In this document: one piece after another, positions 13,390 to 18,258 of the stretch | How positions within the stretch are numbered: position 1 is the stretch's first letter | How the letters are laid out: each line of letters opens with the position of its first letter | Assembly (NCBI GenBank): GCA_005503065.1 | Contig: SCOE01000037.1 | Coordinates: 1-60,721, forward strand | Reading direction: 5' to 3' | DNA from: Comamonadaceae bacterium ALPHA2B | GTDB lineage: Bacteria; Pseudomonadota; Gammaproteobacteria; Burkholderiales; Burkholderiaceae_C | Length of the DNA stretch: 60,721 nucleotides | Position numbers and translations under genes: made by a program | The notes under the pieces: generated by a model | Databases searched by the model: none | Told to the model about the DNA's origin: nothing | What the model saw: only the letters and a program-made list of their open reading frames with translations

Positions 13390-14751
13390 TCAGGCGGCCA
13401 GCGTCTCGACGGGCAGTGCCTTGACCGGGCCCCGCACGGCGGGATGCGCGGCCAGCGCCCGCAGCGCATCGTCCAGGACAGCCTGCACCAGCGGTTCCGT
13501 GAGGCACAGCGCCTCGGGCGCCGCGGCGGGCGTGCCGTCGGCCCACACCGCGCGCTGCAGCAGCACGCCGTGCCCGGCCAGCGCGGCTTGCAGCGCGTGC
13601 AGCCCCTGCCCGGCGACCAGCGGCACGCGCAGCCATCGCACGCCACGGGCCGCCGCGCGAGGCAGCACGGGCAGTGCCTCGGTGGCATGCGGATGCACGC
13701 CCAGGTGCGGCACCTGCTGCGCCGGTGGCACGCCGGCCTGCCGCGCCACGTCGACCAGGTCGGCGATGACGGCCGAGGCGGTCTGCTCCGCGCCGGCTCC
13801 GGCGCCGTAGTACATCGTCACGCCCGCCGCGTCGCCCTTGACCATGACGCCGTTCATCGAGCCGTTCACCTGGGCCAGCAGGTGCGCGGCCGGCAGCAGC
13901 GCGGGCTGCACCCGCAATTCCACGCCCTGCGGCGTGCGGCGCGCCACGCCCAGCAGCTTGATGCGAAAGCCGAACTGCTCGGCGCCGCGCACGTCGGCCG
14001 CTTCCAGGCCGTCGATGCCCTCGACCTGCACTTCGGCGAAGCGCAGCGGCATGCCGAAGGCGTTGGCCGCCAGCAGCGTGAGCTTGTGGGCGGCGTCGAT
14101 CCCCTGCACGTCGAAGGCCGGGTCGGCCTCGGCATAGCCCAGGGCCTGCGCCTCGCCGAGCGCCTCGGCGAAGCCCAGGCCCTCGTCGCGCATCTTGCTC
14201 AGGATGAAATTGCTGGTGCCGTTGATGATGCCGGCCAGCCACTCGACGCGGTTGGCGACCAGGCCTTCGCGCAGCGCCTTGACGATCGGAATGCTCACGG
14301 CCACGGCGCCTTCGTAGGCCACCGCGACGCCGCGAGCCCGGGCCGCAGCGAAGATCTCCTCGCCGTGCACCGCGAGCAGCGCCTTGTTGGCCGTCACCAC
14401 GTGCTTGCCGTGGGCGATGGCGGCCAGCATCCAGTCGCGCGCCGGGCCGGTGCCGCCGGCCACCTCGACCACCACGTCGACTTCGGGATGGGTCGCGACC
14501 TCGAAGGGATCGGCCGTGACGGGCACCGCCGGGCCGACGATGCCCGCCGCGCGCGCCAGGTCGCGCGCCGCCACGGCCACGATCTCGATGCCCCGGCCGG
14601 CGCGTGCGGCGATCAGCCGCTGGTTTCGCGCCAGCACGCGGAAGGTGCCGCCGCCCACGGTGCCGATGCCGATCATGCCCACGCGCAAGGCTGGGGTGGC
14701 GGCCGGCAGCAGGCCGGGGGCTTCGAGGGAGGGAACGGGATCGCGGTACAT
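13390..14751 (-). CDS. hom: Homoserine dehydrogenase
   Basis: Reduces aspartate semialdehyde to homoserine, the branch point to threonine and methionine. The 453-residue protein has a Rossmann motif (GMIGIGTVGGGTF, residues 25-37), VTANKALLA, the catalytic-domain signature GIINGTSNFILSKM, and a C-terminal region with weak ACT character that would be the threonine-feedback domain. The ATG at 14751 has a good ribosome site (AGGAG). The gene stands alone: thrC and thrB are not adjacent. Its 250-base leader carries a Thr/Ile-rich peptide and a terminator. Another hom elsewhere in the genome is possible but cannot be seen here. Confidence 0.95.
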   Translation of the reverse strand: MYRDPVPSLEAPGLLPAATPALRVGMIGIGTVGGGTFRVLARNQRLIAARAGRGIEIVAVAARDLARAAGIVGPAVPVTADPFEVATHPEVDVVVEVAGGTGPARDWMLAAIAHGKHVVTANKALLAVHGEEIFAAARARGVAVAYEGAVAVSIPIVKALREGLVANRVEWLAGIINGTSNFILSKMRDEGLGFAEALGEAQALGYAEADPAFDVQGIDAAHKLTLLAANAFGMPLRFAEVQVEGIDGLEAADVRGAEQFGFRIKLLGVARRTPQGVELRVQPALLPAAHLLAQVNGSMNGVMVKGDAAGVTMYYGAGAGAEQTASAVIADLVDVARQAGVPPAQQVPHLGVHPHATEALPVLPRAAARGVRWLRVPLVAGQGLHALQAALAGHGVLLQRAVWADGTPAAAPEALCLTEPLVQAVLDDALRALAAHPAVRGPVKALPVETLAA

Positions 14752-14768
14752 GGACTTCTCCTGACGAC

Positions 14769-14797
14769 AAAAAACAAACCCGGCTGCCGGGCCGGGT
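14769..14797 (-). terminator. Intrinsic terminator in the hom leader (attenuator)
   Basis: On the minus strand ACCCGGC - CCGGCA - GCCGGGT is followed by TTGTTTTTTG, a strong intrinsic terminator. It ends only 18 bases before the hom ATG, so read-through must be regulated for hom to be expressed. That position is what an attenuator needs. Confidence 0.85.
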
Positions 14798-14827
14798 GGG
14801 TCAGTCGTTCGGGAGAAGATCGATCAC

Positions 14828-14871
14828 CAGGTGGCTGCCGGAACGGGCCACCTGCACGAGCTCAGGTGGCC
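14828..14871 (-). promoter_or_regulatory. Mutually exclusive hairpins of the hom attenuator
   Basis: Segment 14846-14854 (CAGGTGGCC on the minus strand) can pair with 14863-14871 (9 bp, overlapping the last leader codons). Alternatively its 14847-14854 part can pair with 14828-14835 (8 bp). The two stems cannot form together, which gives the 1:2 against 2:3 choice typical of amino-acid attenuators. How the 2:3 form would disrupt the terminator is not evident by eye, since the terminator arms lie further downstream. Confidence 0.65.
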
Positions 14872-14894
14872 GTGGTGGTAATCGAAATCATCAT
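14862..14894 (-). CDS. Thr/Ile-rich leader peptide of hom
   Basis: A ten-codon frame, ATG ATG ATT TCG ATT ACC ACC ACG GCC ACC TGA, encodes MMISITTTAT: four threonines and two isoleucines out of ten. These are the amino acids that control the enterobacterial thr operon through its ThrL leader (known). Here the frame lies 110 bases upstream of hom. Its last codons form one arm of a hairpin and a terminator lies between it and hom. No strong Shine-Dalgarno is visible before either ATG, which is the main weakness. Ribosome stalling at the ACC ACC ACG run would leave the downstream strand free for the alternative stem. Confidence 0.7.
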   Translation of the reverse strand: MMISITTTAT

Positions 14895-14990
14895 TCGTGC
14901 ATCCGGTGTCCGCCGGGCGGCGGACGGCATCGCACGGCCCGGATGGGCGGCGGATGCGGGGTGGAACGGGTGGCACGGCATGGAGCGGCG

Positions 14991-14996
14991 AGTATA
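14991..14996 (-). promoter_or_regulatory. Candidate -10 box for the hom leader transcript
   Basis: TATACT on the minus strand, the only good -10 hexamer in this GC-rich gap, about 100 bases before the leader peptide. No clear -35 is seen. A GTCCGCC/GGCGGAC stem lies between it and the peptide. Confidence 0.4.
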
Positions 14997-15005
14997 GGCC
15001 GGGTT

Positions 15006-16040
15006 TCACGGGGCGCTGGCCAGGTGCCGCTCCAGCCACGCGCTGTAGCGCGACAGGCCGAAGCACAGCACCCAGTAGACCGCCGCGATGAAGAGATAGC
15101 CCTCGAGATAGAACGGCCGCCAGGTCGGGTCGCCGCCCAGCGCCAGGCCCAGCGCGCCGGTCAGCTCGAACAGGCCGACGATGGTGACGAGCGAGGTGTC
15201 CTTGAGCGTGCCCACGACGTTGTTGGTCAGCGCCGGCACCACCAGGCGCAGCGCCTGCGGGAGCACGATGTCGCGCTGCACCGGCCAGCGGCCGAAGCCC
15301 AGCGCCATCGCCGCCTCGGTCTGGCCGCGCGGCACCGCCTGCAGGCCGCCTCGGATGATCTCGGCCAGGTAGGCCGCCACGAACAGGCTCAGCCCGGCCA
15401 GCACGCGCACCAGCACATCGGGCTTCCAGCCCGCCGGCCACAGCAGCGGCAGCAGGTACGAGGCCATGAACAGCACCGAGATGAGCGGCACGCCGCGGAT
15501 CAGTTCCACGTAGGTCGCCGCGAGCCCGCGCACCGCCGCCCAGGGAGAGCGCCGCGCCAGCGCGAGCACCAGCGCCAGTGGAAAGGCCAGCGCCAGCCCG
15601 ACCACGGCCAGGCCGATGGTCAGCGGCAATCCGCCCCACCGGTTGGTCGGCACCTGCGACAGGCCGGCCACGCCGCCGAACATCAGCAGCACCGCGACGG
15701 CCAACGTGCCCAGCCACAGCGGCAGCAGCCACCAGCGCCAGCAGCGCGGCCAGGCGCTCAGCAGGGTCGTGGCCGACAGAAGCGTCACCGCGACCGCCGG
15801 CCGCCACTGCTCCTCGTAGGGATAGCGGCCGAAGAGCATGGGCCGCCACTTCTCGGCGATCACGCCCCAGCAGGCGCCATGGTGCACCGCGCGGCAGGCC
15901 TGCGCGTCGGGTCGGAACACGGCCTGCAGCAGCGCCCAGTCGACGACGTGCCAGGCGGCCCAGCCCAGCGCGGCCAGCAGAAGCAGGCTCACCGCCGCAC
16001 GCACCGGCGTGCCGAAGAGTTCCGCGCGCCAATCCATCAT
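15006..16040 (-). CDS. aapM: Amino-acid ABC transporter permease, AapM type
   Basis: Inner-membrane subunit of a general L-amino-acid importer. The 344-residue product has the long N-terminal extension of AapM (first membrane segment, then a Cys-containing periplasmic loop around ACRAVHHGACWG), a second cluster of hydrophobic segments, and the BPD_transp_1 domain with the coupling EAA-type loop (EAAMALGFGRWPVQRDIVLP). ATG 16040 overlaps the aapQ stop (ATGA), so the genes are coupled. No ATPase gene follows; the next element downstream is the hom leader. Confidence 0.9.
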   Translation of the reverse strand: MMDWRAELFGTPVRAAVSLLLLAALGWAAWHVVDWALLQAVFRPDAQACRAVHHGACWGVIAEKWRPMLFGRYPYEEQWRPAVAVTLLSATTLLSAWPRCWRWWLLPLWLGTLAVAVLLMFGGVAGLSQVPTNRWGGLPLTIGLAVVGLALAFPLALVLALARRSPWAAVRGLAATYVELIRGVPLISVLFMASYLLPLLWPAGWKPDVLVRVLAGLSLFVAAYLAEIIRGGLQAVPRGQTEAAMALGFGRWPVQRDIVLPQALRLVVPALTNNVVGTLKDTSLVTIVGLFELTGALGLALGGDPTWRPFYLEGYLFIAAVYWVLCFGLSRYSAWLERHLASAP

Positions 16041-17050
16041 GACGACCATCCGCGCAGCGCCACGCGGGCGTTGTAGACGTCCATCGCCGCCGAGATGAGC
16101 AGCGACAACGTGAGGTACACGGCCATCACGATGGCAATGCACTCGAAGGCCTTGCCGGTCGAGTTGAGCGAGGTGTTGGCGACGGAGACCAGCTCGGGAT
16201 AGCCCACCGCCACGGCCAGCGAGGAATTCTTGGTCAGGCTCAGCAGCTGGTTGGTCAATGCCGGCACGATGACGCGCAGCGCCTGCGGCAGCACGACGAG
16301 CCGCAGTTCCTGCCCGGGCCCGAGGCCCAATGCACGCGCAGCCAGCTTCTGGCCCACCGACACCGACAGAATGCCCGCGCGCACGATCTCCGCGACGAAG
16401 GCGGCGGTGTACAGCCCGAGGCCGAGCACGATCGCCAGGTACTCGGGACTGAGGGCTGCGCCGCCGACCACATTGAAGCTGGTCGGCTCCGGCCAATCGA
16501 GCCGGCTGGGCCAGAAGGCGCCCTCCTCGGCCACCGGCCAGGGCATCGCGAGGCCGCCCTTGCTGAGCCACACGCCGGGCATGATGCGCAGCGGCTCGGT
16601 CGAGTCGGGCAGCAACTGCGTGAGGGCGAAATACAGCATCAGCAGCTGCACCAGCAGCGGCACGTTGCGCAGCGTCTCGACGTAGGCCGTGCAGATGCCG
16701 CGCACCAGTCGGTGCGGCGCGAGACGGCCGATGCCGACCAGCGTGCCCAGCATCACCGCCACCACGGCCGCCGGAACGGCCGCACGCAGGGTGTTCACGA
16801 CGCCGGCGAGGAAGGCGCGCCAGAAGGGCTCGCCCGAATCGAAGGCCAGCCAGCCTTCCGACAGCCCGAAGCCGGCCGGCTGGCCAAGGAAATCGAAATG
16901 CGCATGCGCCCAGCGCCACAGGCCCGCCACGCCGGGAAGGCCTCGCGCCAGCCACAGCAGTCCGGCGACCAGCGCCGCGCCCAGCAGGACCTGCAGCCCC
17001 GCGGGCAGCGCGAGCCGGGATGCGGCGCCGCGCCGCGCCGCGCGGCTCAT
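16037..17050 (-). CDS. aapQ: Amino-acid ABC transporter permease, AapQ type
   Basis: Partner permease of AapM. The 337 residues have an N-terminal membrane segment (LQVLLGAALVAGLLWLA), a periplasmic loop, the transport domain beginning at VVNTLRAAVPAAVVAV, and the coupling loop AARALGLGPGQELRLVVLPQ. It is somewhat shorter than rhizobial AapQ. Both ends overlap neighbours by four bases (aapJ upstream, aapM downstream). Confidence 0.9.
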   Translation of the reverse strand: MSRAARRGAASRLALPAGLQVLLGAALVAGLLWLARGLPGVAGLWRWAHAHFDFLGQPAGFGLSEGWLAFDSGEPFWRAFLAGVVNTLRAAVPAAVVAVMLGTLVGIGRLAPHRLVRGICTAYVETLRNVPLLVQLLMLYFALTQLLPDSTEPLRIMPGVWLSKGGLAMPWPVAEEGAFWPSRLDWPEPTSFNVVGGAALSPEYLAIVLGLGLYTAAFVAEIVRAGILSVSVGQKLAARALGLGPGQELRLVVLPQALRVIVPALTNQLLSLTKNSSLAVAVGYPELVSVANTSLNSTGKAFECIAIVMAVYLTLSLLISAAMDVYNARVALRGWSS

Positions 17051-18084
17051 CGCACCGGCAGTGCGTAGAGCAGGCCGCCCTTGTTCCAGAGGTTGTTGGC
17101 GCCGCGCGGCAGCTTCAGCACCGACTTGGGACCGACGTTGCGCTCGAAGATCTCACCGTAGTTGCCCACGGCCTTGATCGCGCGATAGGACCACTCCTTG
17201 TCCAGGCCCAGCAGCTTGCCCAGATCGTCGCCAGTGCCCAGCAGCCGCTGCTGCGCCGGGTCCTTGCTCGAGCCCTTGAGCTCGTCGATGTTGGCCTGCG
17301 TGATGCCGACTTCCTCGGCTTCGATGAGCGCGTTGGGCACCCACTTGGCGATCGCGAACCACTCGTCGTCGCCGCGCTTGACGGCCGGCGCCAGCGGCTC
17401 CTTGGAGATGAGCTCGGGCAGGATGACGTAGTCGTCGGGGTTGGGCGCTTCCTTGTTGCGCAGGCCGGCCAACGCCGAGGTGTCGGTGGTGAAGGCCTGG
17501 CAGCGGCCGGCGAAGAAGGCCTTGAACGAGGCCTCGAAGCTCTCGAACACCACCGTCTTGACCGGGATGCCCTGCGCCTTGGACCAGTCGGCCACGTTCT
17601 TCTCGTTGGTGGTGCCGGACTGCGTGCAGATGGTCGCGCCCTTGAGCTGCTTGGCGCTCGTGACCTTGATCTTCCTGGGCACCAGGAAACCCTGCCCGTC
17701 GTAATAGTTGATGGTGGTGAAGTTCAGGCCCAGCGAGGCGTCGCGGGTGAGGTTCCAGGTGGTGTTGCGCGCCAGGATGTCGACCTCGCCGGCCTGCAGG
17801 GCCGCGAAGCGCTGCTGCGAATTGAGCGGCACGAACTCCACCTTCTTCGCGTCGCCCAGCACGGCTGCGGCAATGGCGCGGCAGCTGTCGACGTCCAGGC
17901 CCGACCAGTTGCCTTGGGTGTCGGGCGCGGAGAAGCCGGCGACACCATTGGTCACGCCACACTTGACGGCCCCGCGCTGCTTGACGGCATCGAGGGTCTT
18001 GCCGGCGTACGCCGGCGCGGCGGCAAGGGCCGTGGCCAGCGCGATGGCGCCGGCCGCGAAGGCAATCAGGGGGCGTTGGGTCAT
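17047..18084 (-). CDS. aapJ: General L-amino-acid-binding periplasmic protein AapJ
   Basis: Solute-binding receptor of the polar amino-acid family 3. It has a signal peptide (MTQRPLIAFAAGAIALATAL, cleaved after AYA) and a 345-residue length normal for AapJ/BztA. The family fingerprints are GVTNGVAGFSAPD near the start of the mature protein, LDVDSCRAIAAAVLGD, and the ICTQSGTTNEKNVADW stretch of the second lobe. I chose ATG 18084 over an upstream in-frame start because it begins the signal peptide. It is first in the aapJQM operon. Confidence 0.94.
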   Translation of the reverse strand: MTQRPLIAFAAGAIALATALAAAPAYAGKTLDAVKQRGAVKCGVTNGVAGFSAPDTQGNWSGLDVDSCRAIAAAVLGDAKKVEFVPLNSQQRFAALQAGEVDILARNTTWNLTRDASLGLNFTTINYYDGQGFLVPRKIKVTSAKQLKGATICTQSGTTNEKNVADWSKAQGIPVKTVVFESFEASFKAFFAGRCQAFTTDTSALAGLRNKEAPNPDDYVILPELISKEPLAPAVKRGDDEWFAIAKWVPNALIEAEEVGITQANIDELKGSSKDPAQQRLLGTGDDLGKLLGLDKEWSYRAIKAVGNYGEIFERNVGPKSVLKLPRGANNLWNKGGLLYALPVR

Positions 18085-18258
18085 GAGGCGTGCTTCCGTT
18101 GACTGTGATCGCGGCCAGTGTACGGGGGCCACATCGCCCCTGCCAAAGACACCCGGGTGCGTTGCTTATGTGCCGCCCCGGAGCGCCGGGCGGTATCGCC
18201 GCGCAGCGAGTTTCACTAACATTCGGGCCCGTGACCAACTACCGCTGACCCAAAACAC

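Follow-up and report, generated by a model that had tools for sequence, protein, structure and literature searches.

The second homoserine dehydrogenase gene (hom2) of Comamonadaceae bacterium ALPHA2B appears to be controlled by a ribosome-sensing attenuator, in which a leader peptide rich in isoleucine and threonine codons, translated from a leaderless start, would act through an antiterminator formed between a third RNA segment and the terminator itself (3:T). We put the probability of this reading at roughly 0.8. The logic is that of a leader-peptide attenuator and the wiring differs from the textbook version. The window, that is, the whole stretch of DNA analyzed here, comprises 60,721 nt of contig SCOE01000037.1 (GCA_005503065.1), and all positions refer to its forward strand. 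The leader codons are found on the minus strand between the end of a permease gene (15006) and the start of hom2 (14751), together with an intrinsic terminator and three segments that are complementary to one another (Table 1). The fold of 14740-14996 is more stable than all 200 of 200 dinucleotide shuffles (z -4.60), and a stop codon preceded by at least six Thr or Ile codons in ten occurs only once in the whole window, both strands included, and in none of ten first-order Markov copies of it.

Table 1. Elements of the hom2 leader and their positions in the window.
Feature	Sequence or size	Position	Strand	Remarks
-10 promoter box	TATACT	14991..14996	-	9 nt upstream of the leader ATG
Leader ORF	39 codons, MPCHPFHPASAAHPGRAMPSAARRTPDARMMISITTTAT	14862..14981	-	frame conserved in relatives; probably leaderless
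Ile-Ser-Ile codons	ATT TCG ATT	14880..14888	-	codon starts at -24, -21 and -18 relative to the stop; in the model, a ribosome stalled on them leads to antitermination
Thr-Thr-Thr codons	ACC ACC ACG	14871..14879	-	read in the window sequence
Segment 1	CGGCCACCTG	14863..14872	-	overlaps the leader stop codon; pairs with segment 2
Segment 2	CAGGTGGCCCG	14844..14854	-	partner of segment 1 or 3
Segment 3	CCGGCAGCCACCTGG	14827..14841	-	partner of segment 2 or of the terminator; 3:T covariation
Anti-Shine-Dalgarno (anti-SD)	CTTCTCC	14812..14818	-	follows segment 3 and precedes the terminator; can pair with the hom2 SD
Terminator hairpin	ACCCGGC-CCGGCA-GCCGGGT	14778..14797	-	segment 3, as antiterminator, pairs with its loop and both arms
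U-tract	TTTGTTTTTT	14769..14778	-	absent in a sister lineage
hom2 Shine-Dalgarno (SD)	GGAGAAG	14755..14761	-	just beyond the terminator; partner of the anti-SD
hom2, homoserine dehydrogenase	453 aa	13390..14751	-	no Pfam ACT match

The first-pass annotation of this region had proposed a threonine/isoleucine attenuator in front of hom, and the parts from which it was assembled are real. The Thr/Ile codon stretch is present as described (ATGATGATTTCGATTACCACCACGGCCACCTGA, translated as MMISITTTAT and a stop, 14894-14862 on the minus strand, with four Thr and two Ile codons), as are the two mutually exclusive hairpins, in which CAGGTGGC (14854-14847) pairs with either GGCCACCTG (1:2) or GCCACCTG (2:3), and the strong intrinsic terminator just before the gene (hairpin and U-tract, 14797-14769). 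Alignment of related leaders, among which an absence of Thr/Ile codons was to count against the proposal, finds these codons in the relatives together with the segments and the hairpin, so that, as far as sequence can tell, a Thr/Ile leader-peptide attenuator before hom is well supported. The original description had not included the longer ORF and its promoter box, nor the pairing between segment 3 and the terminator or that between anti-SD and SD.

The extent of the leader ORF was established in an alignment of 68 leaders (A3), all of which, the window included, carry a hexamer resembling a -10 box at a distance of 6-10 nt from the in-frame ATG that follows it (TACACT in 40, TATGCT in 18, TATACT in 6, TAGACT in 2, and TAAGCT and TATCCT in 1 each); no conserved -35 element was seen in these 68 leaders. 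In 53 leaders the ORF spans 31-49 codons and takes 14 different lengths with the frame intact throughout. Since the long start was selected with the help of the hexamer pattern, part of this agreement between -10 box and ATG is built in. The residues upstream of the regulatory codons are not conserved in the 53 leaders, a free variation that is expected if only the frame and the codons matter, and a coding-selection test on this upstream part failed, changes being spread evenly over the codon positions (103/93/110, from pairs that are not independent). From this arrangement we infer that transcription starts at, or within a few nucleotides of, the ATG at 14981, and that the leader is probably translated as a leaderless message.

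The peptide had previously been taken to begin at MMIS, and it is conceivable that MMISITTTAT is the real leader, read from a weak internal site within a longer untranslated leader, with the long frame being incidental. This short peptide holds all the regulatory codons, an in-frame ATG does occur within the last 13 codons of 54 of the 68 leaders, and both the lack of conservation of the upstream residues and the way in which the long start was picked would be compatible with it. An SD-like 4-mer 4-14 nt before the late ATG is found, however, in none of these 54 leaders, which confirms what was noted earlier, that no ribosome site serves the short ORF, and the other 14 leaders have no late ATG at all. 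What is conserved is thus not the short peptide; the long frame, by contrast, is kept over its 14 lengths and always beside a -10-like box. We consider the short reading unlikely, and the missing ribosome site is probably explained by leaderless translation of the long ORF.

The 68 leaders of A3, 52 of them distinct, were read in three batches. In the first, 33 loci were tried and 32 read, and in the second 22 were tried and 21 read, all of those read having the -10/ATG arrangement. The one failure of the second batch, L085, which failed again in the third, was read by eye and checked separately; it fits the pattern (30 codons, TATGCT 7 nt before the ATG) and is not counted among the 68. In the third batch 20 loci were tried and 19 read, 15 of them at new places, since L088, L089, L093 and L095 are the places of L052, L057, L050 and L053; the two leaders with TAGACT, L091 and L092, lay outside the script pattern. 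L054 was excluded, having another Thr/Ile leader and no anchor; L056 and L060, with hom1-like upstream regions, were untried; L034, at 48% identity, and L035, which lacks its 5' end, were set aside; and duplicates of used loci (L003, L004, L017, L023, L024, L025, L027 and L028) were omitted. Xenophilus sp. E41 carries two contigs, L025 and L026, with hom2 stretches that agree at every one of their 9359 bases, either through recent duplication or as an assembly artefact. In L054 (G239), a hom2 relative, a different short Thr/Ile-rich leader (MRPQPIAITITTTTAQRDVAVGI, identified by eye) is followed by a terminator-like hairpin and lacks the segment 2/3 anchor; it is perhaps an independent attenuator.

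The regulatory codons occupy nearly constant positions. Counted from the stop, 52 of 53 leaders have their first Ile codon at -27 or -24, and 47 of 53 their first Thr codon at -24 or -21; the leader as read is rich in codons for the amino acids of its own pathway. Ile is encoded by ATT in 96 of 99 leader codons, as opposed to 6 of 85 in five genes of the window, where ATC accounts for 79. The exception for Thr is the window's own group of five leaders, in which Ile codons at -24 and -18 flank a Ser codon at -21 and Thr appears only from -15. With a ribosome footprint of +12 the Thr codons of the window fall in the modelled off zone, so that the label of threonine attenuator, appropriate insofar as a Thr/Ile leader is kept in the relatives, fits the window species less well than them. 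The late position of Thr in the window suggests that Ile may be the stronger signal there.

The link between the alternative stem and the terminator, which the first-pass annotation had left open, is, on the evidence of the alignments, an antiterminator between segment 3 and the terminator. A consensus fold of 26 aligned leaders presents the 1:2 pairing alongside an unexpected 3:T pairing. In a first alignment of 32 leaders (A2), 3:T shows pairing and hardly any covariation, and is not above shuffles, segment 3 being nearly invariant there; the wider A3 changed this result. Among its 52 distinct leaders, 3:T pairs hold in 91.6% of cells, and both sides are changed in 26 cells, where shuffles give 7.1 (sd 2.1); covariation scores 0.142, versus 0.092 for shuffled and at most 0.047 for slid versions. 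None of 500 shuffles is as high in paired cells, double-changed cells or covariation; this shuffle test is inflated by relatedness, which the slid controls retain while scoring much lower. Neither the number of pairs with double changes (3 versus 2.1; 117 of 500 shuffles) nor that of pair types (10 versus 10.8; 444 of 500) exceeds shuffles. On three of five measures in A3, an antiterminator exclusive with the terminator is therefore seen to covary. The double changes fall in three pairs: UA/GC (unpaired in 23 of 52 rows), CG/UA, and AU/UA/GC (unpaired in 13 of 52).

The two upstream helices, for which covariation had also been sought, present no double changes in A3, because segment 2 is nearly fixed. 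Pairs of 1:2 hold in 97.4% of cells in the 52 distinct leaders, the same as in shuffles and with changes of G-U type only, and 90.8% of cells are compatible with the 2:3 pairing together with the hairpin. In the E. coli trp model, a four-segment attenuator, the 2:3 pairing is the antiterminator. The same scheme could be proposed here, given that 1:2 and 2:3 are mutually exclusive and that the regulatory codons lie upstream of segment 1, yet it is quite improbable that 2:3 directly excludes the terminator in the hom2 leader: the two occupy separate columns of A2 (47-73 and 116-138) and have no base in common, so 2:3 cannot exclude the hairpin, and the actual competitor of the terminator is 3:T. 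Duplexes of segment 1 or 2 with the terminator are about as strong as those with shuffled partners. In the unmasked fold of the window, the nearly fixed regulatory codons pair with the 3' end of segment 3.

From these elements we infer a start site, stalling, switching in cells and a response to Ile and Thr along the following lines. Transcription would begin at or near the ATG at 14981 and the leader would be read from its leaderless start. When charged isoleucine tRNA (and, in most relatives, threonine tRNA) runs short, the ribosome would stall 18-27 nt short of the stop, on the regulatory codons, leaving segment 1 free to pair with segment 2 and segment 3 unpaired. Free segment 3 would then capture the 5' arm, the loop and the 3' arm of the terminator as they are transcribed, no terminator would form and hom2 would be made. 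When Ile and Thr are plentiful, a ribosome at the stop would cover segment 1, allowing 2:3 and then the terminator to form, and RNA polymerase would stop. With no ribosome, the codons would pair with the 3' end of segment 3 and, in the model, the terminator of the window is mostly formed. The sign of control would be the usual one, on in starvation and off in plenty.

Folding with ribosome masks, as had been suggested, makes the window switch with a +12 footprint and gives uneven results among the relatives. In these equilibrium models, for which footprints of +10, +12 and +14 were compared in the window, an A-site at -30 to -18 yields the antiterminator with probability 0.99-1.00 under +12, and the terminator reaches 0.98 at -15 to -3, 0.92 at the stop and 0.80 without a ribosome; the flip falls between codons -18 and -15. 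The +10 footprint leaves the first Thr codon intermediate (terminator 0.44). Under +14 the outcome changes between -21 and -18 instead, and a ribosome at the stop gives the antiterminator (0.90), so the modelled off state of the window depends on the footprint. When the window RNA is cut one base past the hairpin core, the change is only from 0.00 (stalled) to 0.45 (stop). A stall at -24 still leaves the terminator at 0.9 or above in 12 of 32 leaders (L031, L032, L036, L040-L043, L045, L047-L049 and L053), and four of the 32 (L052, L055, L057 and L058) give the antiterminator at 0.84 or above even at the stop with +12. With the codons masked, the minimum free energy fold contains 1:2 and 3:T together in 26 of 32 leaders at the earliest cut and in 19 of 32 two columns later, and a modelled switch above 0.5 is obtained for 20 of 59 leaders versus 26 of 295 spacer-shuffled copies. 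Masked folding is in agreement with starvation-on control for the window, as modelled, and not for all relatives.

The leader also carries an anti-SD able to pair with the hom2 SD. Across 32 leaders the mean energy of this duplex is -17.35 kcal/mol with the partner from the same genome, versus -13.90 with partners from other genomes and -8.12 with shuffled ones, and such pairing might render leaked readthrough transcripts poorly translated. In the class with a U-tract, the accessibility of the SD in full-length folds is constant with respect to ribosome position (0.27-0.28), and a translational switch in this class is thus unsupported by that model.

The hairpin of the window has the U-tract of an intrinsic terminator, and in 46 of the 68 leaders the 10 nt that follow the hairpin contain at least six T; the other 22 fall short of this, and the absence of a U-tract makes it unlikely that their hairpin is a standard terminator. 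In the hom2 tree, from which L050 was omitted and in which the U-tract-less group was scored only against hom1 rows, a single branch (100/99) separates these 22 rows, along with L074 and L083 (7 and 6 T in 10), from the rest, 24 rows in all. Where the tree is rooted is unsure, and hence so is the direction of the change in the U-tract. In this sister form the mean unpaired probability of the SD is 0.28 with the ribosome at the stop versus 0.45 on stalling, a modest difference in a model that allows no pseudoknots. As a guess, the hairpin of the sister form may control translation by hiding the SD.

The gene behind the leader is a homoserine dehydrogenase, as annotated, and specifically the second paralogue, in which no ACT domain is detectable. 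The host genome has two hom genes, the paralogue being 54% identical to the leader-bearing copy, and among 15 genomes of the host genus that were searched all 15 have a hom1-type match and 6 have hom2 as well. A match at E <= 1e-142 was obtained in 28 of 399 genomes of the wider family, a number that is not an exact hom2 count because L056 and L060 have hom1-like upstream regions and some leader-bearing genomes fall below the cut. The Pfam ACT domain scores above cut-off in all three hom1 proteins examined (L002, L009 and L015) and in none of seven hom2 proteins (that of the window, P0001, and six others), even at E <= 1. Conversely, no Thr/Ile leader was found in the 350 nt scanned before any of 17 hom1-type loci. 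An ACT-bearing hom1 without a leader and an ACT-less hom2 with one suggest a split between feedback at the level of the enzyme and at the level of RNA.

A covariance model of the leader finds one copy in the host genome and matches in 24 of 100, 5 of 9, 1 of 1 and 14 of 17 genomes of four other genera; over the order, with stricter filters, it finds 3 of 399 genomes, all in the family of the window. Named records bearing the leader include Xenophilus, Variovorax and Acidovorax. In the window, three genes for an amino-acid-type ABC transporter (a family 3 binding protein and two permeases; 15006-18132, minus strand), which we take to be aap-like, abut the leader, and the last permease is followed by hom2 and not by an ATPase gene. 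Because a same-strand permease gene ends upstream at 15006, the hairpin might be no more than a terminator that shields hom2 from the transport genes and senses nothing. The leader stays with hom2, however, when its neighbors differ (in Acidovorax radicis, L032, a DUF72 gene lies upstream and an FMN_bind_2 gene downstream), its Ile/Thr codons persist and 3:T covaries, all of which makes mere insulation highly improbable. Still less probable is a known RNA class (a T-box, a riboswitch or the Rfam threonine leader), which the shared function of the gene with that of thr leaders might suggest: no Rfam family matches at gathering score anywhere in the window, the Thr_leader covariance model has no match in it, and relaxing to E values of up to 10 in 14740-15040 returns four unrelated families, the best at E 0.02.

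The closest counterpart of the proposed attenuator is thrL, the attenuator of the E. coli thr operon (Rfam Thr_leader). In both, a gene for homoserine dehydrogenase is preceded by a leader with Thr and Ile codons, and the position of the ribosome would set the choice between terminator and antiterminator. Unlike thrL, the hom2 leader belongs to another lineage, precedes a lone ACT-less gene, has no Rfam match, is probably leaderless, chains 1:2, 2:3 and 3:T, has an antiterminator that takes both strands of the terminator and contains an anti-SD/SD pair. A start site close to the leader ATG, as is proposed for hom2, has been described for ilvBNC of C. glutamicum, where it lies one nucleotide from the ATG of a 15-residue peptide and terminator, antiterminator and anti-antiterminator hairpins are likewise present (PMC11857589); that system, as presented there, is actinobacterial, with branched-chain codons and an acetohydroxy acid synthase (PMC11857589). 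Within the proteobacteria, the RNA 5' end of Sinorhizobium meliloti trpL coincides with the ATG of the leader ORF (PMC7298713), providing a leaderless leader peptide comparable to the one predicted here from sequence, although it serves a trpE(G) operon and has 14 residues (PMC7298713). Parallels to the U-tract-less sister form are leader peptides of actinobacteria for which no terminator is obvious, and T-boxes in which a hairpin hides the SD for amino-acid control, both described in PMC1262725; these cases involve other genes and another phylum, and those that hide the SD are T-boxes (PMC1262725). Our literature search found no such leader for the Comamonadaceae, key surveys lying outside its coverage so that an earlier description is possible; the main text of PMC2965389 contains neither "homoserine" nor "threonine".

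A broader and more tentative proposal, to which we would give somewhat less than even odds, is that the Comamonadaceae have swapped allosteric for RNA feedback, with a hom2 that has lost its ACT domain standing solely under the leaderless Ile/Thr relay of 1:2, 2:3 and 3:T, and with the U-tract-less lineage having become a translation switch, the whole forming a natural series from transcription to translation. If the attenuator read here is real, Thr/Ile attenuation would take in the Comamonadaceae, where it is wired differently, and a single leader would be on hand in dozens of natural versions, some with a U-tract and some lacking it, making testable both the coupling of a leaderless leader peptide to RNA polymerase and the interconversion of transcription and translation attenuators.
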